From a virus: a stretch of 48,154 nt of DNA. The DNA is taken from the IMG/VR virus record IMGVR_UViG_3300046543_000819, positions 1 through 48,154 of that record, one strand, 5' to 3'. Of the stretch, positions 16,832 through 46,298 are shown piece after piece (the first letter of the stretch is position 1; each line of letters opens with the position of its first letter). Made by a program: the position numbers and the translations under genes. Under the pieces are notes generated by a model. That model did not search any database and had not been told where the DNA came from. It saw nothing but the letters and a program-made list of their open reading frames with translations.

Positions 16832-16833
16832 GC

Positions 16834-28190: not shown

Positions 28191-28210
28191 TCACAACCCA
28201 TCACCACAAG

Positions 28211-28234
28211 GGCTGCTCTGCGGGGCAGCCTTTT
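28211..28234 (+). terminator. Intrinsic terminator
   Basis: GGCTGC and GCAGCC (with flanking G-C) close an 8-nt loop, followed by TTTTGT. Ends the capsid unit. Confidence 0.75.
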
Positions 28235-28246
28235 GTGCTGAGAAAT

Positions 28247-28278
28247 AGGCGAAGGATTTCAACGGCTTTCGCATCTAA
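28247..28278 (+). promoter_or_regulatory. Promoter of the TTTCGC-N18-GCATCTAA class
   Basis: AGGCGA, 18 nt, GCATCTAA, immediately after the terminator and before the tRNA block. The -35 is the weakest of the six. Confidence 0.5.
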
Positions 28279-28282
28279 GTAA

Positions 28283-28554: not shown

Positions 28555-28630
28555 GTTGGTGTGGTCTAGCGGCTACGATGCTCGTCTCCAAAACGATGAG
28601 ACCCAGGTTCGAGTCCTGGCACCTTCGCCA
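28555..28630 (+). tRNA. tRNA-Trp (CCA)
   Basis: Anticodon loop CTCCAAA (anticodon CCA), T arm CCAGG-TTCGAGT-CCTGG, 5-nt variable loop and an encoded 3' CCA. The acceptor GTTGGTG/CACCTTC has two T-T mismatches at its second and third pairs, the D stem only three pairs. 76 nt. Confidence 0.85.
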
Positions 28631-28637
28631 AGTTTGA

Positions 28638-28713
28638 TGAGAGATAGCTCAATCGGTAGAGCTCGCGGCTGTTAACCGCGTGGTTGCAGGTTCGATCCCT
28701 GCTCTCTCAGCCA
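28638..28713 (+). tRNA. tRNA-Asn (GTT)
   Basis: Acceptor TGAGAGA/TCTCTCA, D stem GCTC/GAGC, anticodon arm CGCGG-CTGTTAA-CCGCG (GTT), T arm GCAGG-TTCGATC-CCTGC, encoded CCA. Fully canonical. Confidence 0.95.
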
Positions 28714-29006
28714 CAACCCAGCCCCGCCTCTTCACAATGCGCCTATCGGGCTGGCACCTTTCGACGGCGATCCCGTCTCAGACCTGCGTTCACGCGGGTC
28801 CTTTCCGCCACGAAACCTGTACCCGCTCCTTCGATCCCCGGCGACCTTGCCCGGAAGTCGAGGTGAGATTGCTCACGGTTCGTGCACCCAGACCCAACTC
28901 AGCGGCCGCGCCCATCATAGCGGAGCCGAAGAGGCCGGCGAGGGGCACGGGGCAAACCTGAGCAAAACCGGACGCCGGAGGGTTTCGCGGCACCTTTATC
29001 CAGATT
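28714..29006 (+). other. Gap between tRNA-Asn and the muramidase gene
   Basis: No gene that I can support. A 32-codon plus-strand frame beginning GTGAGATTGCTC near 28863 has a moderate GGAAG upstream and could encode a tiny basic peptide; the other frames look like chance. GTGAG-ATT-GCTCAC is a small hairpin-prone spot. Confidence 0.4.
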
Positions 29007-29525
29007 ATGGACGCAAAGTCCGCCCTCCTCTCCATCCTCGACGGCCCTTGGCCAGTTCTCACCCCTGCGGATTTGGATAGCCTGATCGAGCGGTTCTTCC
29101 AAGCATTCCAGCCGGCCAACGTAGACGCGCGCCGACTGCTCATCGCGATGGCGATGAACGAATCCTCCGGCGGCAAGAACTGTCTGCCGCGGCACGAGCC
29201 TGCGTACTGCACCGGCGCTTACTCGAAGGCACCGCAGGTCGTGCACCTTACCGGCCTCTACGGACACAACGCGCACTGCTCCTTCGGACCCTGGCAGATC
29301 CTGCTCGTCAACTGCCCGGATGGGACCAACCCCGAAGACCTACACGAAGCGGACGCATGCGCGCGAGTCACCGCCGACTTCATGGCGCGACTGAACGTGC
29401 ACAAGAAACCTCAGAGTGTTGCCGAGTGGGGCCAGATTTGGAATGGCGGCCACATCGGCGCTGACAACCCCGGAGTTCGCGCCTACGTCGCGCACCTCCA
29501 ACAGAACTACGACAAAGCGCGCTAG
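29007..29525 (+). CDS. Virion lytic transglycosylase / lysozyme-like protein
   Basis: A 172-residue muramidase-like protein: LLIAMAMNESSGG with E52 as likely catalytic acid, then CSFGPWQILLVNC at residues 91-103, the second conserved block of SLT/goose lysozyme-type domains, and NVHKKPQSVAEWGQIWNGG. It could act as a tail-associated lysin during entry or as the endolysin; no signal peptide is visible. The ATG has little ribosome site. Confidence 0.8.
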   Translation: MDAKSALLSILDGPWPVLTPADLDSLIERFFQAFQPANVDARRLLIAMAMNESSGGKNCLPRHEPAYCTGAYSKAPQVVHLTGLYGHNAHCSFGPWQILLVNCPDGTNPEDLHEADACARVTADFMARLNVHKKPQSVAEWGQIWNGGHIGADNPGVRAYVAHLQQNYDKAR

Positions 29526-29541
29526 TCGCGCAGGAGAGTAC

Positions 29542-29814
29542 ATGGCTTTTACGCGTGAACAGACCCAGCAGGAGTTCGGCGGCATGAATAACGCCCACCT
29601 CGCTGACACGATTATGAACCCCGCGTTCGACGCAGACGCGCGCCGCTACGGCGTGGAGATGCTGATCGATCGCAAGGCCACCGAGGCAAACCGCCCCTTG
29701 TTCCGCCTCCTGGTGTCGAGCATCACTGCGGAGCGCGCGGCAGCCGCCGCAAAGGCAGCCCAAGAAGCAGAAGCATCCCAAGCCGCCGAGACCCAGCCAT
29801 CCTCCGCCGACTAA
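29542..29814 (+). CDS. Small helical protein, unknown
   Basis: A 90-residue helical protein (MAFTREQTQQEFGGMNNAHL) with an Ala/Glu-rich coiled C-terminus. GCAGGAGAG precedes the ATG at 29542, so the longer upstream frame is a shadow. Function unknown. Confidence 0.65.
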   Translation: MAFTREQTQQEFGGMNNAHLADTIMNPAFDADARRYGVEMLIDRKATEANRPLFRLLVSSITAERAAAAAKAAQEAEASQAAETQPSSAD

Positions 29815-29854
29815 TTTTTCACGACCTCTCGCTTTTCACTGAAGGAGACGCGCC

Positions 29855-30538
29855 TTGCATAGCCTGACTGCCCCGGAGAACTCCATCAACCGGAGGCTCG
29901 CCGAATCTGATGAGGTGCTCGGGAAAGAGTGCTCCACCTGCCTCCGCGCCCTCGAGTTCAATATGTTCCGCCTGGACTCCTCGAAGCGCGACGGCCGCGC
30001 ACTCCAGTGCACCATCTGCGAATCGCAGCCACGCCTGTCCACGCAAGAGCATGTTTCGCGCCTCACCGAGATGAACAACAACTCGGAGGGCACCAAGCGC
30101 CAGCGCCGGCAGGACCAGGACGAGTACAAGAACGACGTAGCGCGCATCGGGCACCCGATGACGCACACCGAGTTTCTCGGCAAGGTCACGAAACTGACGG
30201 ACGCTCTGTACTTCGAGCAGGGAAGAGTGGAAGGTGACCTCGCTCTCTACCGCGTCTACGGACGGCCGCAGGAGCACTTAGAGGGCAAGCAGTTTCGCTA
30301 CATCGGATACTGCCCGACCGGCTACATGCCGGAGTTCTCACTCTGGGAGTTCGATGAAGTTCGCGACATCCTCATCCGCGAGAAACTGCGCGGCTGGCGC
30401 ACGGTTCTGCTGAACCTCATCAAGCACCAGATTCTGACCGAAGCACAGGTCAATGAACATTTCGGCGTCCCGACCACCCAGGCCGGGTTCATCTACCGCC
30501 GCGAACTATGGCGCATGCGCAACCGCAAAAACGGGTAG
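29855..30538 (+). CDS. Phage protein with zinc-ribbon domain
   Basis: A 227-residue protein. CSTCLRALEFNMFRLDSSKR followed by DGRALQCTIC (residues 26-55) is a C-x2-C/C-x2-C ribbon seen in phage proteins of unknown role. The C-terminal half is helical with LGEWRTVLLNLIKHQILTEA-like segments. TTG 29855 has GAAGGAG 6 bases upstream. Confidence 0.7.
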   Translation: MHSLTAPENSINRRLAESDEVLGKECSTCLRALEFNMFRLDSSKRDGRALQCTICESQPRLSTQEHVSRLTEMNNNSEGTKRQRRQDQDEYKNDVARIGHPMTHTEFLGKVTKLTDALYFEQGRVEGDLALYRVYGRPQEHLEGKQFRYIGYCPTGYMPEFSLWEFDEVRDILIREKLRGWRTVLLNLIKHQILTEAQVNEHFGVPTTQAGFIYRRELWRMRNRKNG

Positions 30539-30593
30539 GCGCAGCGAGCAGCAAAACATCCCGAGTGGCCCGGATTGGCCAAGGAGAATGACT

Positions 30594-31067
30594 GTGGCAA
30601 AACCCCAAGAAACAAACGAACAGCCGGTTGCGACCGGTGAGTTGAAGATCAGCGCGAACGATCTGCAGGCGATTCTGGCGGCTGTATCGCAGCAGAATGC
30701 AGAGCAGATGAAAGGCGTGATCGAAGCGATCAAGGCGCCTTACCGCGACAAGAACCAGGACGCCATCGACGCGCAGTTCCGCGAGATGGATCGCCTCTCC
30801 GACGAGATGAAGCGCGCCGGAATCAAGGCGGAGCAGGCAGAGTGCGAGCACTTTCAGGGTTCGAGCAAACTGTCCTCGTTCACCGGCCCACTGTCGTCCA
30901 TCGTGAAGCACCAGCTGGATTCCGGTGAGCTCATTGGTATCTGCACCAACTGCCAGGCGATGTTCCGTCCGGGCGATCCGGAGTACCGGAAGCAGATCAA
31001 CCGCAAGAGTGGCAACAGCATGTCCAAGGCTGGCCAGCGCTTCAACTCTGCCGTCTCTGTCCGGTAG
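30594..31067 (+). CDS. Phage protein, possibly head-associated
   Basis: A 157-residue protein with a helical part (DLQAILAAVSQQNAEQMKGV) and C-terminal CEHFQGSSKLSSFT...GICTNCQAMFRPGDP containing two Cys plus Cys-His (possible zinc). GTG 30594 is preferred: AAGGAG is 7 bases away, while the ATG at 30588 is too close to it. Function unknown. Confidence 0.65.
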   Translation: MAKPQETNEQPVATGELKISANDLQAILAAVSQQNAEQMKGVIEAIKAPYRDKNQDAIDAQFREMDRLSDEMKRAGIKAEQAECEHFQGSSKLSSFTGPLSSIVKHQLDSGELIGICTNCQAMFRPGDPEYRKQINRKSGNSMSKAGQRFNSAVSVR

Positions 31068-31074
31068 TTCTTTC

Positions 31075-31089
31075 GTCCGGAATCCGGAC
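31075..31089. repeat. Intercistronic palindrome GTCCGGAATCCGGAC in the late region
   Basis: Exactly the same 15-mer found three times in the leftward accessory region (with G before and CG after). Here it lies between two rightward structural genes, 7 bases past the stop at 31067, flanked by CTTTCG/CGAAAG. Confidence 0.8.
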
Positions 31090-31103
31090 GCTCTCGAAAG
31101 TTC

Positions 31104-31829
31104 ATGCCCTCTACCATTCAATTAAGCCGAACCATCGGCCTCGCGCAGAATTTCGTTCGCAACGCACCGTTGACGATCGGAACTGCGAATGATCCGGCGC
31201 TGTCGAACGCGGACTGGGTACTCCAGTTCATGCTCGCGGCGCCGTTTGCTTGGCCCTGGAACCGCAATAGCGGAACGTTCACCTGCATCGTCAGTCCGGC
31301 GACGCAGGACTACGCCGTTAGCGTGCCTGATTTCGGATGGCTCGAGCGCGCCACGATTCAGGACCTCACAGAGAGTACGAACCCGACCAAAGAAATGACG
31401 GTTAGGTTGTCGATTAGCCAGGACCAGGTCATCGGCCAGCCAGCATTCATCGCTCCGATCTATGACGACGGGGCAGGGAACATCACCTTCCGCCTGTTCC
31501 CGACTCCCGACAAGCCGTACGTTGTCACCTTCGACTATCAGGCGGCCGCGCCGCTTTTCACCGGAACTACTTCTAAGTGGGCTCCGGTTCCGGATCGCCT
31601 CTCTTATCTCTACAACCAAGGGTTCCTCGCGAAGACCTACGAATACCTCGGAGACGACCGCTTCCCGATCGCCATGCAGTTGTTCCTGCGCCAGGTGATC
31701 GCCGCCAATCAGGGTCTCGACGAAACCCAGACCAACCTCTTCCTCGCTGACCGAATGAACTCCGCGCGCGAAACGCAAGAGACCCTCGGCAATGCAGTGT
31801 CCGGCCGCCAAGGCCGCGGCATGTTCTAG
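31104..31829 (+). CDS. Head-tail adaptor-like protein, copy 1
   Basis: A 241-residue protein. Residues 30-85 (NADWVLQFMLAAPFAWPWNR, ...ATQDYAVSVPDFGWLERATIQD) share spacing with the 41223 gene product (LANDIIQKIFAQGMDWKFNR, ...QQDYLTQVTNLGWMESCYRVD). The C-terminal half is helical (DRLSYLYNQGFLAKTYEYLG). I read it as an adaptor or connector between portal and tail, on context; a direct family match is not certain. Confidence 0.6.
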   Translation: MPSTIQLSRTIGLAQNFVRNAPLTIGTANDPALSNADWVLQFMLAAPFAWPWNRNSGTFTCIVSPATQDYAVSVPDFGWLERATIQDLTESTNPTKEMTVRLSISQDQVIGQPAFIAPIYDDGAGNITFRLFPTPDKPYVVTFDYQAAAPLFTGTTSKWAPVPDRLSYLYNQGFLAKTYEYLGDDRFPIAMQLFLRQVIAANQGLDETQTNLFLADRMNSARETQETLGNAVSGRQGRGMF

Positions 31830-31839
31830 GAGCAACATT

Positions 31840-34800
31840 TTGATTCGCGTTCCCCGCATACTCACATCCCTGTTCACTTTTTGCGCGCTCGCTGCATCGG
31901 CATTCGCCGCGCAGGGGTCGCAGCGTATTTCGACAGTGGTCGCCAACGTCGGCAGCAACGCGCGCGTTCTCGCCAACGCGCAGATCACGGTCTGCTCTTA
32001 CAACGCGAGCAACCCGACTTGCACCACTCCTGTGATTGTGTACCAGGACCCCTTGATGACCGTGCCCTATGCGTTTACGTTCCGCGCAGATGGCAACGGC
32101 AACTACAGTTATTGGGCCGCAGCAGGGAATTACGTAGAGAAGGTGTGTGCGACGGGCGCGCAGTGTCAGACGCGTGTCATAACCCTGGGAGGTAGCGGCA
32201 GCGGCGGTGGCGGGACTCCCGCGGGGCCGTCTTTTGCGATCCAGTTCGCGAACAACGGCGTAACTGCATTCCAGGCCGACGGCGATTTTACGATCGACCC
32301 GACGAACCACATTTTGAATACGTCGGCCGGCAATTACATCGTCGGTGCTGCGAACAGCATGCCCCGCAAGGTATTCGACCCGATGGACACCAACCGCCTA
32401 GGCGGACTTGCGGCGGCACTCGCTGGTACGTCTGGACACACCCCCACGGAGGTTATCCAGGCCACGCTCGATTATGCGGAGTGTCAGACGTTTCCAGGTT
32501 CTTGGAGCAAAGTCCTTCTCCCCTCCGGATTGAACATCCCTATTAGCCAGATTCTGGTATGGACCCATCAAGAGCTGTCTGGTGAGAGCGAAAGTGTTCA
32601 CCCGTTTTTAGGGCACAACGACAACACGAAAGCCATGATTATGTTGCATGGTGCGGCTGACACCGTCACCTGCCCCAATCTAGGTCCTACCCCTGTCACT
32701 CCGGGCGCACCCGGCAACGTGGTGATTAAGAACATCGGCATTGGTGGTATGAACGTCAGCACCAGTAACGATATAGGCATTCGGTTAGAAGGTACTGACG
32801 GCTTCCAATGCGTCGGCTGCCTGGTTCAGAACATCTCGGGAGGAGCCAGCTTCGGAGGGCAGGGCATCCTTCTTCTCGGCGTCAGCGATAAGGCCAAGGA
32901 TTTGGGGTATGAAGACGCGCAAATATCTGGATGCCTCGCCTATACCAACGGTGTAGAGCCGATCTCCCACTCTCCAACCGGACAATGCGGAGCGGTTGAG
33001 GATGATGTATTAGATGGCGAATTAGATAACGTCTATTCTTCAGACGGTGCCGGGTTTCTTGGTGGCCCCACCGTTCGTGGTCCCGGCGCCTGCTATCCCA
33101 ACTGCGCGGGCTTTGTATTTGGCGGAAATAACGGATACGCAAATGGTGTGTTCTCGCAGATATCAGATATCGGCGCGATCCTTGGCGGCACCAACGTGCG
33201 ATTCCACAACTACCGCATCGACGGAACCTCTAAGGAAGGTGTGCGCCTGAGTGGTGGAAGCAACATCCTGGAGGAATTCCACGTCACCGCCCCTTGCACT
33301 TCAATATCCCTACAAGCCAATTACAACTCAGGCGTGGCAACCGGGTGCTTCGGTTTATTTACCGGAACCGGCTCAGGCATCAACGCCGGAAATTCTTTTA
33401 CAGATATCCACATAAACCTGAACGGGGGAATCCTTGGGCAGTCCTTTGCTCAGGCGCAGTTCCGGGATGGAGTGTCGTTCAACGCGGCTCCGAATCATTA
33501 CGACTTTCTTGGGATAAACGTTAATCCCAACAATACCGGACCAAATGACTGGCCTCTCTTCACCAACGTGGGCATCGCTCCCAGCACTCCTCCGGTTGTT
33601 GCTTATAGCCCCAACCTCGTAGGAACGCTCACCGCAGCGCAGGGAACGGCCAATATTAGCGGAGTAAGCATGCTGGAGATCAATACCAGCACCCCTCTTA
33701 CTCACGTTGTCGGAGGAATCCCCGGGCAGATTGTAACCATCTACGCTAACTTTGGCGGCCCCGGCACTGCCACTATCAATCACAACCCCAGCGGCACTGG
33801 GGGTGGGATCATTACATGCTCCAAGCAGCCAACAACCGTGTCAGTGACGAATGGAGCAATCTTCCAATACTCCGTCAACAACTTGGTGGAGCTTGGATGC
33901 GATACGCAACTCGATCACTCTTGGATCAACTGGTTTGGAAACCCCACACCCTCCGCCCCTAGCTTCATCGACTTCTACGGGAACATTCAGGCCAGGAAAA
34001 GCCCGGCGCAATTCGCCCCGGATTTCACAAATCTTCATGGTTCTACTACAAGCGGTTCCGCCTGCTTCGTGCTGGAATCAGTATTCTCGGATGGTTCCCA
34101 CGTCGTTTCTCCACAGGCGTGTACCAGTGTGAATTTAGCGGCGCTGACTCCGGGAGGCATATTCGCTTCCGACTTACCGCAGGCCGCCGCGTTCAATATG
34201 TATTTGGTATCGAACACGCAGGCCAACGGTGTTCCTCTTGGCAAGTTCGGGGCGGGCTCTTTTCAGGGCGGCAGTACCTTTTACTGGGATGGCCCCACGA
34301 CCATAGCCGCAGGAGGTAATGGAACCGTAGTAGCAGCCGGTGACAACAACACCGGAGAATACTGGGCAGTAAACGGTGTGCTTCTATCCACCTCCGGAAC
34401 TCAGCCCACATGCGGTGCTGAATACCAAGGGTTGCAGTGGATCGTACGTAACGCCACAACCGGCGACGTGTACCAAATCTGCCAGCAGCAGGCGGGCGGA
34501 TCGTTTGCATGGTCGTCCCCCGGTGGCGGCGGACCCGCAACGATAATCGCCAGTTCAGAGACTGTTACCTTCTCAGCCACGCCGACGTTCGCCACGACCA
34601 CGCGAGCCAGCATCATCACGCTCACCGGCAACATCACCAGCTTCACGCTGGCAGCCGCCGCAGATGGGCAGGAAAAGACACTCACATTCTGCCAGAACGG
34701 AACCGGCAGTTTCACTGTTGCGCCACCTACAAACGTCCACGGATTTATGACCGTAGGAACCACGGCTTCCAAGTGCAACTCGCAGCACTATACCTACTCC

Positions 34801-34851
34801 GTCGGACAATCTGCGTGGCTGGCCGACTCTTCAGGTGTCATTAATGAATAG
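31840..34851 (+). CDS. Secreted tailspike-like protein (beta-helix region)
   Basis: A 1003-residue protein starting with a Sec signal peptide: MIRVPRILTSLFTFCALAAS ending AFA before AQG. TTG 31840 is chosen because TAGGAGC is 7-8 bases upstream and the signal then starts correctly. Next is a small beta domain with Cys pairs (CSYNASNPTC), a GSGSGGGG linker, a long repeat-rich beta-helix-like centre (residues ~150-520) and a C-terminal domain found in similar proteins (TFCQNGTGSFTVAPP). Tailspikes are normally made without signal peptides, so export is unusual. Confidence 0.75.
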   Translation: MIRVPRILTSLFTFCALAASAFAAQGSQRISTVVANVGSNARVLANAQITVCSYNASNPTCTTPVIVYQDPLMTVPYAFTFRADGNGNYSYWAAAGNYVEKVCATGAQCQTRVITLGGSGSGGGGTPAGPSFAIQFANNGVTAFQADGDFTIDPTNHILNTSAGNYIVGAANSMPRKVFDPMDTNRLGGLAAALAGTSGHTPTEVIQATLDYAECQTFPGSWSKVLLPSGLNIPISQILVWTHQELSGESESVHPFLGHNDNTKAMIMLHGAADTVTCPNLGPTPVTPGAPGNVVIKNIGIGGMNVSTSNDIGIRLEGTDGFQCVGCLVQNISGGASFGGQGILLLGVSDKAKDLGYEDAQISGCLAYTNGVEPISHSPTGQCGAVEDDVLDGELDNVYSSDGAGFLGGPTVRGPGACYPNCAGFVFGGNNGYANGVFSQISDIGAILGGTNVRFHNYRIDGTSKEGVRLSGGSNILEEFHVTAPCTSISLQANYNSGVATGCFGLFTGTGSGINAGNSFTDIHINLNGGILGQSFAQAQFRDGVSFNAAPNHYDFLGINVNPNNTGPNDWPLFTNVGIAPSTPPVVAYSPNLVGTLTAAQGTANISGVSMLEINTSTPLTHVVGGIPGQIVTIYANFGGPGTATINHNPSGTGGGIITCSKQPTTVSVTNGAIFQYSVNNLVELGCDTQLDHSWINWFGNPTPSAPSFIDFYGNIQARKSPAQFAPDFTNLHGSTTSGSACFVLESVFSDGSHVVSPQACTSVNLAALTPGGIFASDLPQAAAFNMYLVSNTQANGVPLGKFGAGSFQGGSTFYWDGPTTIAAGGNGTVVAAGDNNTGEYWAVNGVLLSTSGTQPTCGAEYQGLQWIVRNATTGDVYQICQQQAGGSFAWSSPGGGGPATIIASSETVTFSATPTFATTTRASIITLTGNITSFTLAAAADGQEKTLTFCQNGTGSFTVAPPTNVHGFMTVGTTASKCNSQHYTYSVGQSAWLADSSGVINE

Positions 34852-35773
34852 GTTCCGGCGGCTGTTTTCAGTCTCGCTGCTGCTCTTGCTTCCCTGCATC
34901 GCCATGGGGCAGGCAGGCACTGGTGTTCCGGATCAAACGGCAGCGCACTTCCCCAGCCCGGTGCTGTACTGCGTCCCCGCCGCCAGCGCTACCGGCGGCA
35001 CGGGAGCGATGGTCTGCTCGGCCATATCGGACGACGGAAACTTCACGTATGACACAGAGCCGCTCAAGATGTCGAGCCCGGTCTATCTCCTGCCGACAAA
35101 CGTAGCGACGTCCTCCGCGAATTACGTCTCCAACGCTACTCAGTACGTGATGAGTTACTTCAACGCTGGGGGCGCCGCAGTTAACACTGGTTGGACGGTA
35201 TACGGGTGGGTAGGCACCGGGACTACTCCCGCCACTGATCTCGATTTCTATGGCCCTCCGGATCTCCCCAGCGATGCCATCCTGTATGCCATAAATGGCG
35301 GCATCTCTGCTACCGCCATCCAGAATTACAACTCCCCGAAATTCAAGGTCCGCGGTGCATGCTGGAACGGTTCCACCTCGCTGCTCGCTGATTGGAACTG
35401 GCAGGAGATCGAAGGCACCGGCGCGAACCCAACAGAGACGCTGCTGTTCACACATAACGGTTGCACCGGTGTGGCGATTGTAGAGGTACCCGGAATCAAG
35501 ACGGACGGTACTGCGTACATCGGTACAGGCACCGCATCGAACACAGACGTCACCGGCGAACTCTCGTTCTCCTCCGCCACCACGAACACATACACCCTCG
35601 CCAACCTGTCCACCAGCCACCCCGAGTGCTGGATACGCCCGCAGTTCAACTACGGCACCACAGCCTTCTGGCCGACCTTCACCGGGGGCGGGGCTTCCCC
35701 GTGGGTTATGACGATCAATTTCTCCGCAGCTGTCACCGGTAACGTGAGTTTTGGATGTCTCTTCAGAAACTAA
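34844..35773 (+). CDS. Secreted beta-sandwich protein
   Basis: A 309-residue protein with a Sec signal (MNRFRRLFSVSLLLLLPCIA, then MGQA). The mature part is Thr/Gly-rich beta with few charged residues. ATG 34844 overlaps the previous gene by 8 bases and has CAGG upstream. It overlaps the next gene by 19 bases. No family recognised; a polysaccharide-binding or fibre role is inferred. Confidence 0.7.
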   Translation: MNRFRRLFSVSLLLLLPCIAMGQAGTGVPDQTAAHFPSPVLYCVPAASATGGTGAMVCSAISDDGNFTYDTEPLKMSSPVYLLPTNVATSSANYVSNATQYVMSYFNAGGAAVNTGWTVYGWVGTGTTPATDLDFYGPPDLPSDAILYAINGGISATAIQNYNSPKFKVRGACWNGSTSLLADWNWQEIEGTGANPTETLLFTHNGCTGVAIVEVPGIKTDGTAYIGTGTASNTDVTGELSFSSATTNTYTLANLSTSHPECWIRPQFNYGTTAFWPTFTGGGASPWVMTINFSAAVTGNVSFGCLFRN

Positions 35774-36963
35774 TAGCGATCCTCCTCGCTATATTTTTTC
35801 CATTTTCCCTTACAGCACAGACGACACTCAAAGGCGTGACCGTGCGCGGTCTCTCCGTAGGGGTGACGCAGTCTGGGCCGCCGCCGACCAGCGGGTTCAG
35901 CTTCTTGCCTGCGGGAGGAACGTACACATCGGCGCAGAACGTAAGCGTCACGTACACGCCAACCGGAGCCGGGCAGGACATCTTTTACACGACAGACGGA
36001 TCGACGCCGGATGCTGCTTCAAAGTTGTTGCAGACAGGCTCTACCATTCCGGTCTCCGTAAGCACGGTCATCAATGCGCTTGTGTATCGCGTAGGCAGTG
36101 TCCGGCAGGACACGCAGTTGACCCAAGGGTTGTGGAAGGTATGCACACCGAAGGGTGGAGGCCCTGGAACACCAACTTCTGCGCTGTGCGGAGGCGTAGG
36201 TTCGACGCAGCCTACCGGCTGGAACATCCTCTGGAACACTACAGTCGGTGGGGTCAGCGGACTTGAGTCGATCAGCCTATCCGGCAACGGTGTCCAGATT
36301 CTGGTCACGCTCGGCGGCTCCGGTTGCGACGACTGCACCGAGATCACGATGGACAAGTGGATCAAACCGCTTGACGCCGACACCGCTACACAGAACCACG
36401 AACATGATGTTTGGCACAACGATGCCACGCGCAACCGGCTGCACATGGGCGGATTCCAATGCAACCAGCAGAGCGGCAACCCCGCGCAACTCGGCGGGTT
36501 GTCGGGCAAACAATGGCAGTTCGACAATGAACAGGGCGGCGATGGACCGGGCGGCGTGTCATGGGTCAATACCAACGTCAACGACAAGTGCCCTCTCTCG
36601 ACCTCACTGTGGACACACCTGCGGGTTCATCTCTCGTTTTCGGTTGGCGACGACGGCTGCGGCGACGGGCACACACCGTCCGTACATGGCGGTCTAGGCT
36701 GCACAAGATACGACTGGTTCGAAGTAGGCACTGCGATCAGTCCAAACAACGGCGCGACGATGGCGCATTACAACCTGGCCACGACAGCCCCCTGGAACAC
36801 GCTCGAGAACGATGCGAAGGGCTGGGGCTCTGGTTGTGCTGACCAAGACCAGGAAGATCTCTTCCCCGGCAGCATCAAGACCGGCGGCGTGCTCATCGCA
36901 CACAACAACGTGACCTGCGGCTACGGAACGATCGCAACCGGCTCCGCGACATACAGCTTCTGA
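35755..36963 (+). CDS. Secreted protein with chitobiase C-terminal-like domain
   Basis: A 402-residue protein with signal peptide (MSLQKLIAILLAIFFPFSLT, cleavage after TAQ). Residues about 45-115 (PAGGTYTSAQNVSVTYTPTG, then IFYTTDGSTPDAASKL) match the CHB_HEX_C-type domain common in secreted glycan-binding proteins. The C-terminal 250 residues resemble a concanavalin-like sandwich with Trp and Cys-rich loops (GSGCDDCTEITMDKW). Likely binds polysaccharide; no catalytic residues can be named. Confidence 0.7.
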   Translation: MSLQKLIAILLAIFFPFSLTAQTTLKGVTVRGLSVGVTQSGPPPTSGFSFLPAGGTYTSAQNVSVTYTPTGAGQDIFYTTDGSTPDAASKLLQTGSTIPVSVSTVINALVYRVGSVRQDTQLTQGLWKVCTPKGGGPGTPTSALCGGVGSTQPTGWNILWNTTVGGVSGLESISLSGNGVQILVTLGGSGCDDCTEITMDKWIKPLDADTATQNHEHDVWHNDATRNRLHMGGFQCNQQSGNPAQLGGLSGKQWQFDNEQGGDGPGGVSWVNTNVNDKCPLSTSLWTHLRVHLSFSVGDDGCGDGHTPSVHGGLGCTRYDWFEVGTAISPNNGATMAHYNLATTAPWNTLENDAKGWGSGCADQDQEDLFPGSIKTGGVLIAHNNVTCGYGTIATGSATYSF

Positions 36964-36991
36964 TTCCTCTTCTTTCAAGAAGGACAACACC

Positions 36992-37435
36992 ATGAAACGA
37001 ATACTGCTTGTGCTGGCGTGTCTCGCTGCACTCGTCTCTGTACCAGCCAAGGCGCAGATCTCTCTTCCATCTACTCTCTGGCACTATACGTGGCCGGCGG
37101 CGACCTCTACAGGGCAGGTGGGCCAGTACATCGTATTGGCTTCCCCGCTGCAGTCTGGCGGCCCGACTCTCTCCTACACGGTTGACGCGTACGTCACTGG
37201 CACTCTGCCGACGACCTGCACGTTCGAGGTGCAGTCGAGTCCTGATGGTGTCGTCTGGAACACAGGCGCGGCAAGCCTCAGTGGAGACACGTCGTGTGCA
37301 TCCGCCTCGGCGGTAACGGTCTCCTTCGCCTTCAAGCCAGTCGCTTATATCCGGATCAACGTCATGGCACTGTCAGGCGGCGATGGAACAACCCAGGTTC
37401 ACTTCTTCTACACGCGTGCTATCGATGGTAAGTAA
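36992..37435 (+). CDS. Small secreted beta protein
   Basis: A 147-residue protein with signal peptide (MKRILLVLACLAALVSVPAK, cleavage before AQIS) and a single beta-sandwich (CTFEVQSSPDGVVWNTGAAS). AAGGAC precedes the ATG. A member of the secreted block; function unknown. Confidence 0.7.
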   Translation: MKRILLVLACLAALVSVPAKAQISLPSTLWHYTWPAATSTGQVGQYIVLASPLQSGGPTLSYTVDAYVTGTLPTTCTFEVQSSPDGVVWNTGAASLSGDTSCASASAVTVSFAFKPVAYIRINVMALSGGDGTTQVHFFYTRAIDGK

Positions 37436-39182
37436 GCAGGCTGCGGCACTCGCGCTCGCGCTTTCCCTAGTCGGGTTTGCGCGCGCGCAGTCGTCTGTCG
37501 TCGGCGTCCCCAATGCTTCGTATAGTCAGGGCTCTTCGGGGAGTGTGCTTCGTCCGGTTCCGGACAAACTGCGGGAGACTGTCAGTGTCACGGACTTCGG
37601 AGCCGATCCCACCGGTACGAATGACTCAACTGCCGCGGTAAACGCTGCGATCGTGTGGACGGGAACCAACCCATCCCCCACAGGCATGACCGGCGGCACG
37701 ATCTACTTCCCCTGCGGTCGGTACAAGGTCAATCCTGCAGTCTCCTTCCTGCCCTACTCCGGAACTGTGGTTCGCGGCGGTGGCAAGAACTGCACGTTCA
37801 TTCAATACACGGGGAGCGCGACGAACCCTGTGTGGGACGTCAACTCGTTCAATAACGGAACGAGAGGCCTGAACATCGAGTTCCGCGATCTGACCATGCT
37901 GGGCAACAACACCACGGCCGGGTCCGTATGCTTCCACTTCGGCACGCCTGACAATTCCACGGGCAAGGTGCAAAACATTACCTTTGTCAACGTCAAGGTG
38001 ACGCAGTGCGGCCACTCGGTTCAGTTGGATGACGTTTGGAACTTCACCACCTGGAACTCGCAATTCATCTACAACCTGGGTGACGGACTGAGGCTCACCG
38101 ATCCGGATGCAATCACCGGTGTCTATCTTCACACCACGCGCATAGGCAACAACGGTGGGCACGGTATCGACAACGTCGGTGCCGGAGTCGTTACGCAGTT
38201 GGAGCAATTTGGGGGCGAAGACACCTACAACGCTACCGGCGATGTTGTCACCGGACTAGCGCGCGACTGGGCATTTTACGGCGTCTGGTTCGAAGACCTG
38301 AACGCGGGTTCGGCGCAGAACGCCATTGATGTCACCGGGGCGCAGGGTGTGCTGGTAGACGACGGACACTTCAACTTCCCGCTCAACTCCGTCTTCGCCT
38401 CGGCGCCAGTCTCTTACATCACGGTAAGGAACTCTGCCACATCGAACGGACAGACCGCTATGGTCAACGTGCCGGCTGGCTCAACGAATATCACCTATTC
38501 GGAGAACAACAGGTCCAACGTGACTTCTACGGCAGGACCGAATACGGCGCAGTACACCGTCGGTTGCCCCGGCACATCTGACTTGGCGATTTCGACAGGC
38601 GCGGGCCTGGCCGTCAACGCGTGCTCCGGTAACAACATCGTGGCCTTCGGGTCTGCCGGAGCGCTCGAAGGGTACATCACCAACGTCGGCAACTTCAACA
38701 TCAAGGGCATCGTCAGCCTGACCGGTTCGGCCTTCGGTCTGTACTCGACAGGCGGTTCTTCGACCAGCCCATCCATCACACGCAACACCGCTGATGCCAT
38801 CGCGGCGATGGTCTTCAATCAGGCCAACGGCAGTTCTTCCGGGGACGAGGCCGACTTCCAGTTCGGCGGTGTCAATCAGGTCGGCTTCACAGTCGGCGGA
38901 TACACCTACCACCGGATCGGTGCGGCGGTTGCATCCGCGGCCACGGTCACCCCGACAGCGCCGACGAATCACATGACAGGCACGGTAAGCGTATCGACCA
39001 TCAGTGTGCCGACTGGCTGTACCTTGTCCACCGCTTCCGGTTGCGAATGGCGCGTGATTCCAGATGCTGCCGTGCCCTTCGTCACCGGCGGAAACATCGC
39101 GGTAGCAACAACAGGTGTCGTCAGCAAACTCCTGATCTGGACCTACGACCCAACACAGGCCAAGTGGTACCCGAGCTACTAA
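37425..39182 (+). CDS. Secreted tailspike-like protein with pectate-lyase-type beta-helix
   Basis: A 585-residue protein: Sec signal (MVSKQAAALALALSLVGFAR, cleavage before AQSS), then the Pectate_lyase_3-type start SVTDFGADPTGTNDSTAAVN and a right-handed beta-helix with repeated N, G and T turns. Such domains in phages are capsule or exopolysaccharide depolymerases or binders. The ATG at 37425 overlaps the previous stop region. Export by Sec would be unusual for a virion tailspike. Confidence 0.8.
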   Translation: MVSKQAAALALALSLVGFARAQSSVVGVPNASYSQGSSGSVLRPVPDKLRETVSVTDFGADPTGTNDSTAAVNAAIVWTGTNPSPTGMTGGTIYFPCGRYKVNPAVSFLPYSGTVVRGGGKNCTFIQYTGSATNPVWDVNSFNNGTRGLNIEFRDLTMLGNNTTAGSVCFHFGTPDNSTGKVQNITFVNVKVTQCGHSVQLDDVWNFTTWNSQFIYNLGDGLRLTDPDAITGVYLHTTRIGNNGGHGIDNVGAGVVTQLEQFGGEDTYNATGDVVTGLARDWAFYGVWFEDLNAGSAQNAIDVTGAQGVLVDDGHFNFPLNSVFASAPVSYITVRNSATSNGQTAMVNVPAGSTNITYSENNRSNVTSTAGPNTAQYTVGCPGTSDLAISTGAGLAVNACSGNNIVAFGSAGALEGYITNVGNFNIKGIVSLTGSAFGLYSTGGSSTSPSITRNTADAIAAMVFNQANGSSSGDEADFQFGGVNQVGFTVGGYTYHRIGAAVASAATVTPTAPTNHMTGTVSVSTISVPTGCTLSTASGCEWRVIPDAAVPFVTGGNIAVATTGVVSKLLIWTYDPTQAKWYPSY

Positions 39183-39211
39183 GTTCGAATTTCTCTCCTC
39201 TGGAATCCCCA

Positions 39212-41197
39212 ATGAAATTAACTAAAATCGCAGGCGCACTTACGCTGCTCATTGCTCTGGTCGCACGCGCGCAGTCTCCGGTAATTGGCCCAACTTTTGG
39301 TGGCGGAAGTCCAGGAGCATCACTTCCCACTGCTACTGCCGCTGGACAGGCCCCTGTATCCACCGGCCCGGGAACAACGTATACCGCTCAACCAGTACCT
39401 CCGGGCGGCGGCGTGTGGCAGAGGGAAGGCACAATCATCTCCCCGTCGGCGTCCGAGGAATACAACGCATCAGAGCCGACACTTCTCTATGAGGGATCAC
39501 CGCAAATCGCGGCGTTTTCCGGGCTCACGAATGTTTGGAAAATGTGGTGGAACTGTGGCTATCTGACTACGGGCCTGTGCTACGCCGAATCTAGTGACGC
39601 TGAAAACTGGGTACGCTGGCCTTCGGGATCCGGCGCGGTTATCGCGAGAGCAAACCCCGGCCCGGCACATGGCTACGTCTTCCATTACAACGGAACCTAT
39701 TACTACTATGCCGGCAACGGCGCGGCGTCTTCGACGCAGATCAATATGTACACGTCGACCAACGGCGTGAGTTGGACGCTCGTCCACTCCGCAGTCTTGA
39801 CGCTCGGCTCGGGCACATGGGACAGCAATCAATTCGGCAACGTCTTCATCATTCCATCGGCGGGCACTTGGCAGATGATGTATGAGGCTTATGGCGCGGC
39901 ATTCTCAAACGGTGTCTTCTGGATGGGCGTCGCTACCTCGGCCGACCAGGGCGTCACATGGGTAAAGAGCGGCAGCAACCCGGTACTCAAAGGACCAAGC
40001 AACGGAGAAGCCGGAGGGCCGGAAATCCATCAGGTCGGCAGCACCTATTACGTTTGGTTTACCTGCAACGGAACCGCGAATCAGTTCACGCCGACCGACA
40101 TATGCAGAGCACACTCAACCAACTTCACCACCTGGACGTTAGACAATGGCGGCACTCCGGTGATGACTCGCGCGACCCAGGATGAGGGTGTCGGCGGCGC
40201 CCCGGGCGCTCCCGGCCAGATCGCCGATCCCTCGATGGTGCAGGTAGGGAACACGATTTACATGGCCTATGACGGCGTGCTCGCGCAGAACGGCACATCG
40301 CCGGATGCGTTTCACCTCAAGCTAGCGACGGCACCGTACACGTTCACGCAGCTCGTGCAAACCAATGAAGGCAACGCCACTAACTACCACGCGAACGGTT
40401 CATTTGAGAATCTGAATCTATTCCCCTGCTTTTACTACGATTACAACTCCGCCAACATCCGTGTCCCGTGCGGGACGACTGGCGTGCTTAACTTCGGCGC
40501 GCTCCAAATGTTGGGGAATGCGCCGACCGTCGGATTCAACTACAACATGTGGTTCAACGGGGCGAGCAACATCTACACGGCGAATGGCGCATCGGCGACG
40601 GGCTATCTCGATCTGACTGGCGGTGTTTATCACTTCTGGGTTGGTCCGGTTGGTACGGCTGGCGGGGTTTCGGCGTTGAGCGAGATTTACAACGCGACAT
40701 CTGCTGGAATGAACTTCATCTCCCCGACAACATTTAACTCAACGCAGTTCATAAAGCCCGCAGGGGGTCTCCCCGCAATTACGATCAGTCAACCGGGAGC
40801 GACCACCTACTCGCAGATGGGGTTCGGCGGGACGTTGACCACTCCGGTGTGGCAGTATGGAGCGGGCAATCCGTCTGAAACCGCGCTTGGTGTGGCGAAT
40901 AAATTATTCTTCTATAACGTTGGAAGCACGTCGGTAGCCGCATCTATTGATGCTTCCAACAATTTTGAAATAGGTATGACGGGGGTGCTACCGGGAACAT
41001 TTAGCAAAAAGTTCCAGGTAGGCACCAGCGGGCAGTTCAACGTGGACTCTAGCGGCAACACCACTACTCCAAGCATCACCGGCCCGGCTACGGCACCATC
41101 GGGCGCATGCTCAACCGCTGGTCAGTGGGTGTTCTCCCAGGACGGACACGCAACGTTCTGCCCAAGCGCAGGTGGCACTTGGGCCACGAAGATATAG
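39212..41197 (+). CDS. Secreted beta-propeller, glycoside-hydrolase-like protein
   Basis: A 661-residue protein with signal peptide (MKLTKIAGALTLLIALVARA before QSPV). Residues about 70-400 form repeated blades (EPTLLYEG, VFHYNGTYYYYAG, WDSNQFGNVFII, GGPEIHQVGSTYYVWF, IADPSMVQVGNTIYMAYDG) as in five-bladed propellers of the GH43/GH32 type. The C-terminal domain (GACSTAGQWVFSQDGHATFC) recurs in related proteins. Catalytic acids cannot be fixed with certainty. Likely acts on host glycans. Confidence 0.7.
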   Translation: MKLTKIAGALTLLIALVARAQSPVIGPTFGGGSPGASLPTATAAGQAPVSTGPGTTYTAQPVPPGGGVWQREGTIISPSASEEYNASEPTLLYEGSPQIAAFSGLTNVWKMWWNCGYLTTGLCYAESSDAENWVRWPSGSGAVIARANPGPAHGYVFHYNGTYYYYAGNGAASSTQINMYTSTNGVSWTLVHSAVLTLGSGTWDSNQFGNVFIIPSAGTWQMMYEAYGAAFSNGVFWMGVATSADQGVTWVKSGSNPVLKGPSNGEAGGPEIHQVGSTYYVWFTCNGTANQFTPTDICRAHSTNFTTWTLDNGGTPVMTRATQDEGVGGAPGAPGQIADPSMVQVGNTIYMAYDGVLAQNGTSPDAFHLKLATAPYTFTQLVQTNEGNATNYHANGSFENLNLFPCFYYDYNSANIRVPCGTTGVLNFGALQMLGNAPTVGFNYNMWFNGASNIYTANGASATGYLDLTGGVYHFWVGPVGTAGGVSALSEIYNATSAGMNFISPTTFNSTQFIKPAGGLPAITISQPGATTYSQMGFGGTLTTPVWQYGAGNPSETALGVANKLFFYNVGSTSVAASIDASNNFEIGMTGVLPGTFSKKFQVGTSGQFNVDSSGNTTTPSITGPATAPSGACSTAGQWVFSQDGHATFCPSAGGTWATKI

Positions 41198-41222: not shown

Positions 41223-42290
41223 ATGCCTATTCTTAGCACCACAAATAACAGCATCCAGTTGCAGAAGATCGCCAACTTTCTGCGTACGTATCCTGAACTT
41301 ACCCCCGTCCTTGGCGTCGGCGGCTTCTCTCAGGAGCCGATCGTCACGCTGGCGAACGACATCATCCAGAAGATCTTCGCGCAGGGGATGGATTGGAAGT
41401 TCAATCGCGCGTACGTTCCCCCGTTCCTTACCGTGGCTCTGCAGCAGGACTACCTGACGCAGGTGACGAATCTCGGGTGGATGGAAAGCTGCTATCGCGT
41501 TGACATCAACAACAACGTGAACAACGGCAATCGCGCCGCGAAACCGACGTACCCGGTCGAGGTTGGCCGGGACCTGATGCCGGTTGCCGGTGCAGGAACT
41601 TCCGTCGCGATCAGTTGGCTCCCCAACTCGCTCGCGCGCCTCGGCACCTGGCAGCCCAACACCGTCTACGGTTGTGGCTATGGACAGGCGCAGACGCCGA
41701 ACACTCCGATCCAGCAGTTCATGGACGTGAACGGCAACCTGCTCTACATCGACTCGACGGTGCTCGGGATTGACGACACCAGCCCGGGGTACAACGGGAC
41801 GCCGATCACGCTTCCCGCGAACAGCCCCTATGGCACGAGCGGGTCCACACAGCCCGCCGCCGATCCGCTGTCACCCGCGGGCACCTTGGTTCAGGACGGG
41901 TCCGTAATCTGGACAGTGGCAGACCCGAACGGCTACGCCATGCGCCTCAGCCCGCTGCCGGCACAGTCCGCGATCTGCTGGCTGTTCCACCCGGTGATCC
42001 AGAACGCTCCGCCAGTTTTCCACACCCTGCAGGACGTCATTGCCCCGCTGCCGAACGATATGTCGTACCTGCTGCGCGACGGTCTGCGCGCCGCGCTCTA
42101 TGACCACGCCGGGCTGCCGCGCGCGGCCACCGCGTACGCGAAGTGGGAGGAGATGCTGATGACCGCGCTCCGGTCTGCGGATCGCGAGACGGACGAGGCT
42201 ATCTTCTACCCCTCCAGCAGCCTGATGGCCGGTCCCGGCGGCGGGTACATCAACCTCGGCCCCGCAAACCCTTATGGCTTCGGCTGGTAG
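41223..42290 (+). CDS. Head-tail adaptor-like protein, copy 2, with inserted module
   Basis: A 355-residue protein. The N-terminal region resembles the 31104 product (see there). Residues about 142-235 carry a WQPNTVY ... VNGNLLYIDST ... GSTQPAA ... DGSVIWTV module that also occurs in the large tail protein at 42744. AGGAAAAA precedes the ATG. The C-terminal helical part ends with FYPSSSLMAGPGGGYINLGP. Probably a connector protein. Confidence 0.6.
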   Translation: MPILSTTNNSIQLQKIANFLRTYPELTPVLGVGGFSQEPIVTLANDIIQKIFAQGMDWKFNRAYVPPFLTVALQQDYLTQVTNLGWMESCYRVDINNNVNNGNRAAKPTYPVEVGRDLMPVAGAGTSVAISWLPNSLARLGTWQPNTVYGCGYGQAQTPNTPIQQFMDVNGNLLYIDSTVLGIDDTSPGYNGTPITLPANSPYGTSGSTQPAADPLSPAGTLVQDGSVIWTVADPNGYAMRLSPLPAQSAICWLFHPVIQNAPPVFHTLQDVIAPLPNDMSYLLRDGLRAALYDHAGLPRAATAYAKWEEMLMTALRSADRETDEAIFYPSSSLMAGPGGGYINLGPANPYGFGW

Positions 42291-42743: not shown

Positions 42744-45700
42744 ATGAGCAATGCACTTCAACTGGCCGGCGCCCAGTCGCGGCACGCCTCCCGTTTCGCG
42801 CCGATCTACAACGCGCGCTTCGCGACCGGTATCTGGACGCAGCGCAACCCGCTGCGCGACGCCGCGAGCACGCGCATGGAAGAGAAGTTCTACGGCCCGC
42901 GCGGAGACGCGTTCATTAACGGTCGGAACATCGAGCTCTCGAACCGGCTGACGCCGGTACGCCGCCCCGGGCTTTCGGTCTACAACTCGTCCAGTTTTAA
43001 CTCCGTCGATTTCTTCTATGAGAGTCGGCTGTTCAACGCGCAGACCGAAGTCATCAAGGTGCTGGCCGACCAGGCCGACGGCCTCTACGACGCGACCGGG
43101 TCCAACAAGATTCAGGTGTGGGCGAAGAGTCCGGGAGCCGGACAAACCTACCTGCAAAACGTGGCGAACTGCATGTTCTTCGCCAACGGTGTCGATCAGA
43201 AGAAGCAGCAGAACTCGCTGCTGACGTGGACGGCGAACACCAACCTCAGCATCAACTCGACCCAGACCTTCCTGGTCGGCACGTCGGGGTTTATCCAGCA
43301 GTTGATTGCGTGCGTACTCACCGTTACCCGCGTCACCGTGGTGAACCAGGTCCTCACCATCAACTGCGCAACGAACCTGACGAACACGATACAGGCCAAC
43401 CTGCAGATCCAGTTCAGCGGCCTCACCGCGGCGCCGTGGCTCAATGGCCAGGTAGTCAACGTGACTTCCGTCTCTGGTACCTCGTTCACCGCGACGTTCA
43501 CGAACAACTTTACCCACCCAAACACCGTCGTGAACGACTCCGGTCGCGCGCAGGTGTTGAACGGCGGCAACCCTACAACCGGATCGGTTCTCCCTTCCTT
43601 CAGTAGCACGTTGCTGGGTCAGACACTCGACGGCACAGCGCTGTGGGTGAATCGCGGAACCCCAATCCAGAACTGGGGCATCGCGGCACCAACGAACCTG
43701 CCCACCATCGTGCACGGCGGCCAAGCAGACGCGTGGCAGCCGAATACTTTTTACGCCAACAACCCGGTCATCGTGGACCCGAACGGCAACCTGCAGAAGG
43801 TAACGACTGCTGGTTTCAGCGGATCCGCCGCACCAGGTTGGGCTACGTCCGTTGGCGGTACTACGACCGACGGCTCTGCAATATGGACGATGATTCAGAC
43901 TGCCGCGTCCCTGGTGTGGCAGCCGCACACGCATTACGCCAGCGGACACTTCCTGATCGGTACAGCGGGCGGCGTGCAGTGCCTCTTCCAGCTTGAGGGC
44001 TTTACCGGCGTCAAGATCTCCGGCGCGGTGAACTCCTACCTCTACAACTCCCCGCACAGTGGTGCGGTGGGGTGTGTCGTTCTCACCTACCCAACGGCTC
44101 TCGGCAGCGCGATAGATACAGCCACCGGCAACAGTTTCCTCTTCAACCCTCCAGCGAACCCGAACCAGAAGCCGGTGCAGTGGGCAACGCTGAACGGGGC
44201 CGGTGAGACCACAGGGTACGTAGTCCCGTATCCGTCGATCACGGAGAACTACTGCCAGATCCTTCTGGCGAATCTCGAGTTCCCGGCCGCCGGACAATAC
44301 ACCGTCCAGTTGACGCACCAAGATGGTTTGATCTGGGGCATGGGTGGTGGCATCGAAGCGGTGAGTGGGCTGGTGACGAATCCGATCGGCCAGACCGGGA
44401 CGCCAGCGAACAACTACCCCATCTTCGCGTCCACGAACCTCAGCGGAACGAACGTCGACACCGCGGTGATTAACGTGCCTGCGGCAGGGACGTACCCCAT
44501 CGAAGTCGCTTGGGATTACTGGTACCACTCTGGACAGACGCTGCAGATCAAGGTCAACGGGAACGACATCATCCCCGACCCGGCAGAGAGCGGTACGACC
44601 CAACCGATCTGGCCGACGTGGACGACCAGCAACGCACCGAGTTACCCCACGGTCTCTGAATCGCAGGGCGCGCTCGCCTGGACGAATATCGGGCCGGTGT
44701 CCGATTACTCGTGGATAGGGCTGACGAATTACATCACGACCGCGACCATCATCGATTCGAACAACTACATTCAGGGTCCATACGAAGCGGGAAAGTCGGG
44801 TACGACTCAGCCTAGCTTCAACACGACAATCAACAGCACGACCGCCGACAATCCGAACCTGCTGTGGATCAACCAGGGCCAGGCTTCGGCCGCACCCACT
44901 GGCACACTGACCACCGTCGACGGCGGATGGCAGTATTGTGCCGCGCTGGTCAACACACTCGACGACACCGTTTCGAACGCCGGACCCGTTACAGCATCTA
45001 CCGGCAATTTCCGCGCGTCCACTGGCGTTAAGGTCAGCGGCGGTATTCCGACCAACTACGATCCTCAGTGCGACTATGTGGCCATTTTCCGGACACAGGA
45101 CGGTGGCGCAACCTTCTATCTGATCCCCGGTCCCGGGAACACGCCGTATACAGTCCCGATTCAGCAGTACATTGCGAACGGATACACCGACACCACGACG
45201 GATCGCAACCTCAACATCCTGCTTCAGGCGCCGCTCGCCGGCGAGAACACTCCGCCGCAGACCGGTGTCATCAATCTGGTCTACCACCTCTCGCGCATCT
45301 TCGTGTCGCTCGGCAACACTGTTTACTGGTCGACCGGCCCGGACACGCCGATAGGGAACGGCACCAACGGATTCTCACCGCTGAACTTCGCGACCTTCCC
45401 CTCGTCCGTGAAGCGCATGGTGCCGACGGCGATCGGTCTGCTGGTCTTCACCGTCTCCGACATCTACCTTATCCAGGGGAGCGGCACACCCGGCAATCCC
45501 ATTTTTCCGGTGCCGTACGCGCAAGGCATAGGACTGCTCTCGTACAACGCGCTGGCTGTCAGCGGAACGATCATCTATCTGTTCACGTCGGACAAGCAAC
45601 TACTCTCGCTCGACCCCGGCGCGTCCGGCGCGTCCGAAGTAGGATTCCCCATCGGCGACCAACTCCAAGGATGGGACCCGACTCAGGTCTACGTCACCTG

Positions 45701-46298
45701 GCACGTATCTGGAAGCCAGGACAAGGCTCTGTACATCGCGAACGGTGGCACCGCATGGTACCGGCTCTGCACGACCCCCGCACCTGAAACCGGAATGATG
45801 TGGAGTCCGATCGCGGCGATCGAAGGCAACTGCAAGGCAGTGCAATCCATCGAGGTCACGCCCGGTGTGCACAAACTCCTCGTAGGCCCCCTCGGCGCGG
45901 GTCCGATATTGCAGCGCGACTACTCAGTTTTCACGGACAACGGCATCGCATACCCAGCCTACGGAATCATCGGCTCCCTGGTGCTGGCGCAACCGGGTCA
46001 GGTGGCCGAACTCGGGTTTGTCACTTTCGACGCATCAAGGATAGGCACCGCGCCGACGATCAGCGTACTGCTTGACGAGATCTCAGGCGATTTCCAGGAT
46101 CTCCTCAGCCCTGCACACGACCCGCCACAGCTTCCGCCCAGCCTAACTCTCTACGCACAGCGTATGTACTTCTCGACGACACAGGCTCCGGCTATCTGCC
46201 GCCACATGCAGGTCCAGTTCACATGGCCAGCGGAAGCCTTCGCAAACGAGTTGCTGAGTCTGACCATCTACGGTGGCTTTGCTCAGGAAACAGCCTAA
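42744..46298 (+). CDS. Large tail protein (nozzle/stabilisation-like)
   Basis: A 1184-residue protein. The N-terminal part (RNIELSNRLTPVRRPGLSVYNSS, FNSVDFFYESRLFNAQTEVI) and the beta-rich C-terminal part (LIFTVSDIYLIQGSG-like blades, SPIAAIEGNCKAVQSIEV) fit podovirus tail proteins that plug the tail tube. At residues about 330-380 lies a WQPNTFY...PNGNLQKV...SAAPGW...DGSAIWT module shared with the 41223 product, with partial copies nearby at 391 (WQPHTHY). The ATG has a poor ribosome site. Confidence 0.7.
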   Translation: MSNALQLAGAQSRHASRFAPIYNARFATGIWTQRNPLRDAASTRMEEKFYGPRGDAFINGRNIELSNRLTPVRRPGLSVYNSSSFNSVDFFYESRLFNAQTEVIKVLADQADGLYDATGSNKIQVWAKSPGAGQTYLQNVANCMFFANGVDQKKQQNSLLTWTANTNLSINSTQTFLVGTSGFIQQLIACVLTVTRVTVVNQVLTINCATNLTNTIQANLQIQFSGLTAAPWLNGQVVNVTSVSGTSFTATFTNNFTHPNTVVNDSGRAQVLNGGNPTTGSVLPSFSSTLLGQTLDGTALWVNRGTPIQNWGIAAPTNLPTIVHGGQADAWQPNTFYANNPVIVDPNGNLQKVTTAGFSGSAAPGWATSVGGTTTDGSAIWTMIQTAASLVWQPHTHYASGHFLIGTAGGVQCLFQLEGFTGVKISGAVNSYLYNSPHSGAVGCVVLTYPTALGSAIDTATGNSFLFNPPANPNQKPVQWATLNGAGETTGYVVPYPSITENYCQILLANLEFPAAGQYTVQLTHQDGLIWGMGGGIEAVSGLVTNPIGQTGTPANNYPIFASTNLSGTNVDTAVINVPAAGTYPIEVAWDYWYHSGQTLQIKVNGNDIIPDPAESGTTQPIWPTWTTSNAPSYPTVSESQGALAWTNIGPVSDYSWIGLTNYITTATIIDSNNYIQGPYEAGKSGTTQPSFNTTINSTTADNPNLLWINQGQASAAPTGTLTTVDGGWQYCAALVNTLDDTVSNAGPVTASTGNFRASTGVKVSGGIPTNYDPQCDYVAIFRTQDGGATFYLIPGPGNTPYTVPIQQYIANGYTDTTTDRNLNILLQAPLAGENTPPQTGVINLVYHLSRIFVSLGNTVYWSTGPDTPIGNGTNGFSPLNFATFPSSVKRMVPTAIGLLVFTVSDIYLIQGSGTPGNPIFPVPYAQGIGLLSYNALAVSGTIIYLFTSDKQLLSLDPGASGASEVGFPIGDQLQGWDPTQVYVTWHVSGSQDKALYIANGGTAWYRLCTTPAPETGMMWSPIAAIEGNCKAVQSIEVTPGVHKLLVGPLGAGPILQRDYSVFTDNGIAYPAYGIIGSLVLAQPGQVAELGFVTFDASRIGTAPTISVLLDEISGDFQDLLSPAHDPPQLPPSLTLYAQRMYFSTTQAPAICRHMQVQFTWPAEAFANELLSLTIYGGFAQETA

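Follow-up and report, generated by a model that had tools for sequence, protein, structure and literature searches.

Six consecutive tail-module genes with predicted Sec signals in a podovirus-like phage of soil Acidobacteriota

The virus record IMGVR_UViG_3300046543_000819 from IMG/VR, analysed here in full, from position 1 to 48,154 (48,154 nucleotides, called the window below), contains terminase, portal and major capsid genes of a tailed phage. It shares synteny with Tunturi_3, a cultured Acidobacteriota podovirus, with matches for the terminase, portal, capsid, both adaptors, the tail hub and the next gene, and the virus is a podovirus-like phage infecting soil Acidobacteriota. In its tail module, between two adaptor genes and ahead of the tail hub gene, lie six consecutive open reading frames, P0001 to P0006, that are the subject of this report; each is predicted to begin with a Sec signal peptide. 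A first-pass annotation had described these frames, their signals and a pair of related adaptor genes around them. All six frames were recovered at the positions it gave, and the bracketing genes are related as it had said, since their profiles cross-match and adaptor 1 also matches the SU10 adaptor family in Pfam.

Each of the six N-termini combines basic residues, a hydrophobic stretch and a small-x-small motif that is usually followed by Q. With a slash for the predicted cleavage site they read, in gene order, LIRVPRILTSLFTFCALAASAFA/AQG, MNRFRRLFSVSLLLLLPCIAMG/QAG, MSLQKLIAILLAIFFPFSLTA/QTT, MKRILLVLACLAALVSVPAKA/QIS, MVSKQAAALALALSLVGFARA/QSS and MKLTKIAGALTLLIALVARA/QSP. Signals were called by a rule based on charge, an uncharged hydrophobic core, a small-x-small site within about 15-40 residues and a ribosome site, and all six genes are above its threshold for signals of the Sec, signal peptidase I (SPI) type. 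In E. coli the rule called 7/7 exported and 0/29 cytoplasmic proteins, and among adaptor and tail core proteins of related phages it called one of 163, through a spurious upstream start. By this calibrated rule, six predicted signals in six genes is far beyond chance. In the relatives described below, false positives were removed by hand (the capsid proteins of loci L095, L105, L110 and L113, which have hydrophobic extensions, and the adaptor of L079), while gene 6 of L073 was added to the signal-bearing set by eye. A cleavage-type motif followed by Q is present in 56 of the 61 signal-bearing proteins. As a separate observation, the major capsid homologues of L089, L092, L095, L096, L104, L105, L110, L111, L112, L113, L118 and L119 have an extra N-terminal extension of ~45 residues that includes a hydrophobic, membrane-like segment and is absent from the capsid protein of the window and from Tunturi_3 gp6.

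Cysteines provide a second line of evidence. The number of cysteines in the mature protein is even in all six window proteins (Table 1). In a non-redundant set of proteins that have two or more mature cysteines, collapsed at 60% identity, the count is even in 43/49 signal-bearing proteins (binomial p=6e-8) as against 147/262 signal-less ones (Fisher p=1e-5), where residual relatedness makes the p-values indicative; among proteins of at least 300 residues the figures are 32/36 and 60/115. The median cysteine content of proteins in the slot that the block occupies is 1.86% with a signal and 0.76% without (p=1.4e-5), and that of core proteins is 0.65%. In domain-matched alignments of three domain families, proteins predicted to be exported (called exported below) have cysteine pairs where their signal-less homologues have other residues. 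The repeat of P0002 has an extra pair compared with five signal-less repeats, Cys951 and Cys979 in the C-terminal domain of P0001 occur only in exported copies when these are set against four signal-less proteins, and N-terminal domains of the GYHR type have a pair in four exported proteins and not in two signal-less paralogues. In one exported copy both members of a pair have been lost together. Another N-terminal domain, NYVYLD, shows a similar trend between exported and signal-less proteins. The paired cysteines and even counts point, independently of the signals, to an oxidising compartment, and because of them the export of these proteins is very likely real.

The first-pass annotation had asked for a check of homologues in related phages, and these do keep the signals. 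In L002, whose tail hub is 72% identical to that of the window, the same slot holds four genes and 4/4 have signals, the orthologue of P0001 among them; the signal sequences have diverged from those of the window, while signal features and composition are kept. Other relatives were found with the tail hub-like protein as anchor: its profile led to 76 loci, which with earlier loci form 62 clusters at 90% tail-hub identity. With the slot defined strictly, 27 of 47 large slot proteins (at least 250 residues) are signal-bearing, in 13 of the 62 clusters, and other clusters have large signal-bearing proteins just upstream or downstream of it. The position of the block is syntenic across many phages; at the same place, relatives of the Tunturi_3 type encode fibres that lack signals and are poor in cysteine. 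Signals are also predicted in cultured phages. The plaque-forming podovirus Tunturi_2 has a gene run with signals on gp12, gp13, gp14, gp16 and gp17 (20, 10, 20, 1 and 34 mature cysteines), of which gp13 is annotated as 'tail fiber' and gp14 as 'pectin lyase', and in the siphovirus Tunturi_4 signals are found on gp113 and gp114 (8 and 20 mature cysteines). When exported relatives were scanned against PHROG, few matches emerged.

Some further observations concern the same genomes. In G005, the record behind L010, a 2681-residue open frame with 93 cysteines (26268-34313, minus strand) has the likely start MKRFFVLILALAFCGRVQPQ, which resembles an export signal, and has further signal-bearing genes in the same run; G004, the record behind L009, encodes a signal-bearing protein of 1703 residues with 67 cysteines (13729-18840). 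The annotated tail protein gp79 of Tunturi_2 (PP885685.1, 54009-55208, minus strand) has an N-terminus, MNTKILLLSLLLTGCATG, that resembles a lipoprotein signal. From a look at the sequence, GIY-YIG-like homing endonuclease genes adjoin adaptor or tail hub genes in L007 (11106-11963) and L090 (a slot gene of 296 residues).

The six products differ in what they resemble (Table 1). The first-pass annotation had set them apart from phage tail proteins, and this contrast does not stand: three of the six have domains with homologues in tail fibre or tailspike proteins that lack a signal. Because of these domains, the six products are read, from sequence, as tail-fibre- or tailspike-type proteins that have gained (or kept) export signals. 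For P0003, P0004 and P0006 no homologue was found among recognised tail fibre or tailspike proteins; P0003 had no sequence match in the PDB and no phage match, and P0006 had no PDB match. The cysteine pair of P0004 is invariant in six phages, and fold matches for this protein were discarded as its structure model is too uncertain (predicted local distance difference test, pLDDT, 61). Of the domains named earlier, the pectate-lyase fold is confirmed in P0005, whereas the propeller of P0006 comes down to sub-threshold GH43/GH32 matches. The suggestion that these proteins are secreted glycan binders or depolymerases is thus borne out for P0005 as far as a glycan-active fold goes, with P0003 suggestive and P0006 weak.

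Table 1. Predicted genes and domains of the signal-bearing block and its borders (positions in the window; Cys, cysteines in the mature protein)
Feature	Position	Strand	Remarks
Adaptor 1, head-tail (SU10 adaptor family)	31104..31829	+	Left border; Pfam PF24175 4.9e-08; profile matches across relatives; homologue of Tunturi_3 gp13 (30% to gp13 region)
P0001, tailspike-like, predicted exported	31840..34851	+	1003 residues; TTG start behind AGGAG ribosome site; 22 Cys
P0001 predicted Sec signal	31840..31908	+	Rule-based finder
P0001 N-terminal domain (NDOM)	31909..32259	+	Conserved; shared with other phages' exported proteins and with signal-less proteins of 171-173 residues
P0001 C-terminal domain	34456..34848	+	Homologous to signal-less ~135-residue tail-module proteins encoded downstream in relatives
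P0002, predicted exported	34844..35773	+	309 residues; ATG start; signal 34844-34909; 6 Cys
P0002 tail-fibre repeat domain	35288..35596	+	Homologous to signal-less Tunturi_3 tail fibre gp15 and L051/L076 fibres
P0003, predicted exported	35755..36963	+	402 residues; ATG start; signal 35755-35817; 10 Cys
P0003 chitobiase C-terminal-type domain	35908-36093	+	Pfam 5e-11
P0004, small beta protein, predicted exported	36992..37435	+	147 residues; ATG start; signal 36992-37054; 2 Cys
P0005, pectate-lyase-fold, tailspike-like, predicted exported	37425..39182	+	585 residues; ATG start; signal 37425-37487; 8 Cys; Pfam PF12708 2.6e-11; PHROG tail spike/pre-neck appendage; PDB 7chu putative pectin lyase 6e-06
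P0006, predicted exported	39212..41197	+	661 residues; ATG start; signal 39212-39271; 8 Cys
P0006 weak GH43/GH32 similarity	39677-39976		Sub-threshold
P0006 C-terminal domain	41072..41194	+	68% identity over 41 residues to C-terminus of exported gp12 of cultured Tunturi_1/2
Adaptor 2	41223..42290	+	Right border; related to adaptor 1; homologue of Tunturi_3 gp12
Tail hub-like structural protein	42744..46298	+	49.5% identity to Tunturi_3 gp19

The window also has four predicted tRNA genes, Ser(cga) at 16364-16447, Ser(gga) at 19597-19675, Trp(cca) at 28555-28630 and Asn(gtt) at 28638-28713. A near-identity DNA search of phage records gave no match, and genome scans with the tail protein and NDOM found no relatives and thus no prophage or chromosomal link to a host.

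The build of the larger exported proteins is informative. In three exported families, of which P0001 is the only window member, homology is mostly limited to the N-terminal 100-200 residues and the remainder is swapped, and a conserved N-terminal domain with an exchanged remainder suggests the usual plan of receptor-binding proteins. NDOM is also found in signal-less proteins of 171-173 residues in L044/L087 and L081, encoded directly upstream of exported paralogues, and NYVYLD is likewise common to exported proteins and to signal-less proteins of 178-204 residues. More generally, a short signal-less gene of fibre-like composition, here called a stub, often lies immediately upstream of an exported gene, and such stubs come in several unrelated forms. 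Tail hub aside, the large proteins of fibre composition begin with signals in Tunturi_2 and in the five metagenomic records covered (three G005 proteins were assigned by eye), so these phages have few other large candidates for a receptor-binding protein. The predicted fold of NDOM is like transthyretin or CnaB, as in the N-terminal domains of phage tailspikes (best E value in the viral library 5.6e-06). Profile comparison showed no relationship of NDOM to the N-terminal domain of the Tunturi gp15 type (A9), and tblastn of the P0001 N-terminal domain and the L044 proteins against phage records gave no match.

The accepted view is that tailed phages make and attach their fibres in the cytoplasm. 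For the six products another route is proposed, in which they would be exported through the host Sec system, probably cleaved after a small-x-Ala/Gln site, and stabilised by disulfides in what would be the periplasm, so that distal parts that recognise the host or degrade glycans would be made outside the cytoplasm. At lysis, when periplasm and cytoplasm mix, they may dock onto virions by the conserved N-terminal domain. In many relatives the upstream stub could supply the virion-side half. We give even chances to the reading of the products as exported tail-fibre-type proteins that fold in the periplasm and dock on virions at lysis. The more specific scheme, a tail completed outside the cytoplasm by joining a cytosolic stub on the virion to a Sec-exported, disulfide-bonded distal part, is plausible with somewhat less than even chances. 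Docking is favoured because the N-terminal domain is kept while the rest is swapped, because of the stub upstream and because few other large receptor-binding candidates are left.

Several points weigh against docking. A stub is missing from the window and from L002, L060 and L085, where the first exported gene directly follows adaptor 1. Short signal-less fibre-like proteins (165-262 residues) exist and could be the real receptor-binding proteins, and in L071 and L077 exported and large signal-less fibres stand side by side. The beta-sandwich predicted for NDOM is a widespread fold: secreted CnaB and carboxypeptidase domains tie with the tailspike domains as matches, and unrelated secreted beta-sandwiches match it as well or better. 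To our knowledge there is also no precedent for completing the tail of a tailed phage outside the cytoplasm. It may instead be that Sec-exported proteins took up tail-fibre domains and never become part of virions; during infection they would bind or cleave the host's exopolysaccharide or surface glycans, aiding release, diffusion or the exclusion of competing phages. Such free effectors would account for the signals and cysteine pairs and for the pectate-lyase, chitobiase-C, Kelch and GH43-like folds, with several different enzymes per phage, and lambda does encode a signal-bearing membrane protein, Lom, beside its tail fibre genes (PMC12309495). However, an N-terminal domain that is kept while the rest is swapped, and that is common to signal-less stubs, suggests docking, and plaque-forming Tunturi_2 would be left with few other large receptor-binding candidates. 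We regard free effectors as less likely than docking, but as a strong alternative to it.

It is very improbable that the N-termini are uncleaved and that the products are normal tail proteins of the virion, put together in the cytoplasm, with a hydrophobic segment that anchors or inserts in the tail or a membrane. The genes do lie among tail genes, and in some relatives the major capsid protein has a hydrophobic N-terminal extension, so that such an N-terminus need not indicate export, but the frequent cleavage-type motif followed by Q, the even cysteine counts and the domain-matched cysteine gains point to an oxidising compartment, and the signal sequences drift while their composition is kept. 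Also very improbable, finally, is an origin as host cargo, that is, secreted carbohydrate-active enzymes captured from Acidobacteriota as auxiliary metabolic genes and placed in the tail module by chance. The folds resemble those of bacterial secreted enzymes and the AQ-cleavage signal has an ordinary bacterial form, but the domains match signal-less phage tail fibres at a position that is syntenic across many phages, and pattern scans of many bacterial and archaeal genomes, of limited sensitivity and covering NDOM only, turned up no relative.

If fibre-type proteins are indeed exported with gained cysteine pairs, this would be either a new assembly route, should docking be shown, or a class of secreted phage effectors that is new. 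It would matter for host recognition by such soil phages, for the annotation of genes that now go under the names tail fiber, pectin lyase or hypothetical, and for the practice of counting polysaccharide-degrading genes with signals in soil viromes as metabolic cargo. A literature search limited to open-access papers, where absence is weak evidence, turned up no account of Sec signals on the fibres of tailed phages, and the main text of the paper on the Tunturi isolates (PMC11924767) has no mention of signal peptides or of mass spectrometry. Cultured isolates make the question of export directly testable.

Tailspikes of the P22 type lack a signal, and their synthesis and assembly take place in the cytoplasm. 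They are like the window proteins in having a conserved N-terminal domain and variable C-terminal parts, including a beta-helix, and the NDOM model can be aligned with the head-binding domain of P22 (Z 7.4), but this fold match is no better than those to unrelated beta-sandwiches (Z 9.7 against unrelated chains). The nearest precedent for export is lambda Lom, a signal-bearing envelope protein that is also encoded among tail fibre genes, but is described as an outer-membrane beta-barrel and not as derived from a fibre (PMC12309495). Podovirus fibres generally, and Tunturi_3 gp15 (PP885686.1) in particular, share with the window proteins the region between adaptors and tail hub and a fibre-like composition; gp15 has the repeat domain in common with P0002, but it has no signal and one cysteine, whereas P0002 has a predicted signal and six mature cysteines. 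In Tunturi_1/2 (PP887698.1, PP885685.1), gp12-gp17 form, as in the window, a run of large, cysteine-rich, signal-bearing genes in the tail region, and the C-terminus of gp12 is homologous to that of P0006. They differ from the window in their middle domains, and are annotated as tail fiber, pectin lyase, virion structural or hypothetical proteins.

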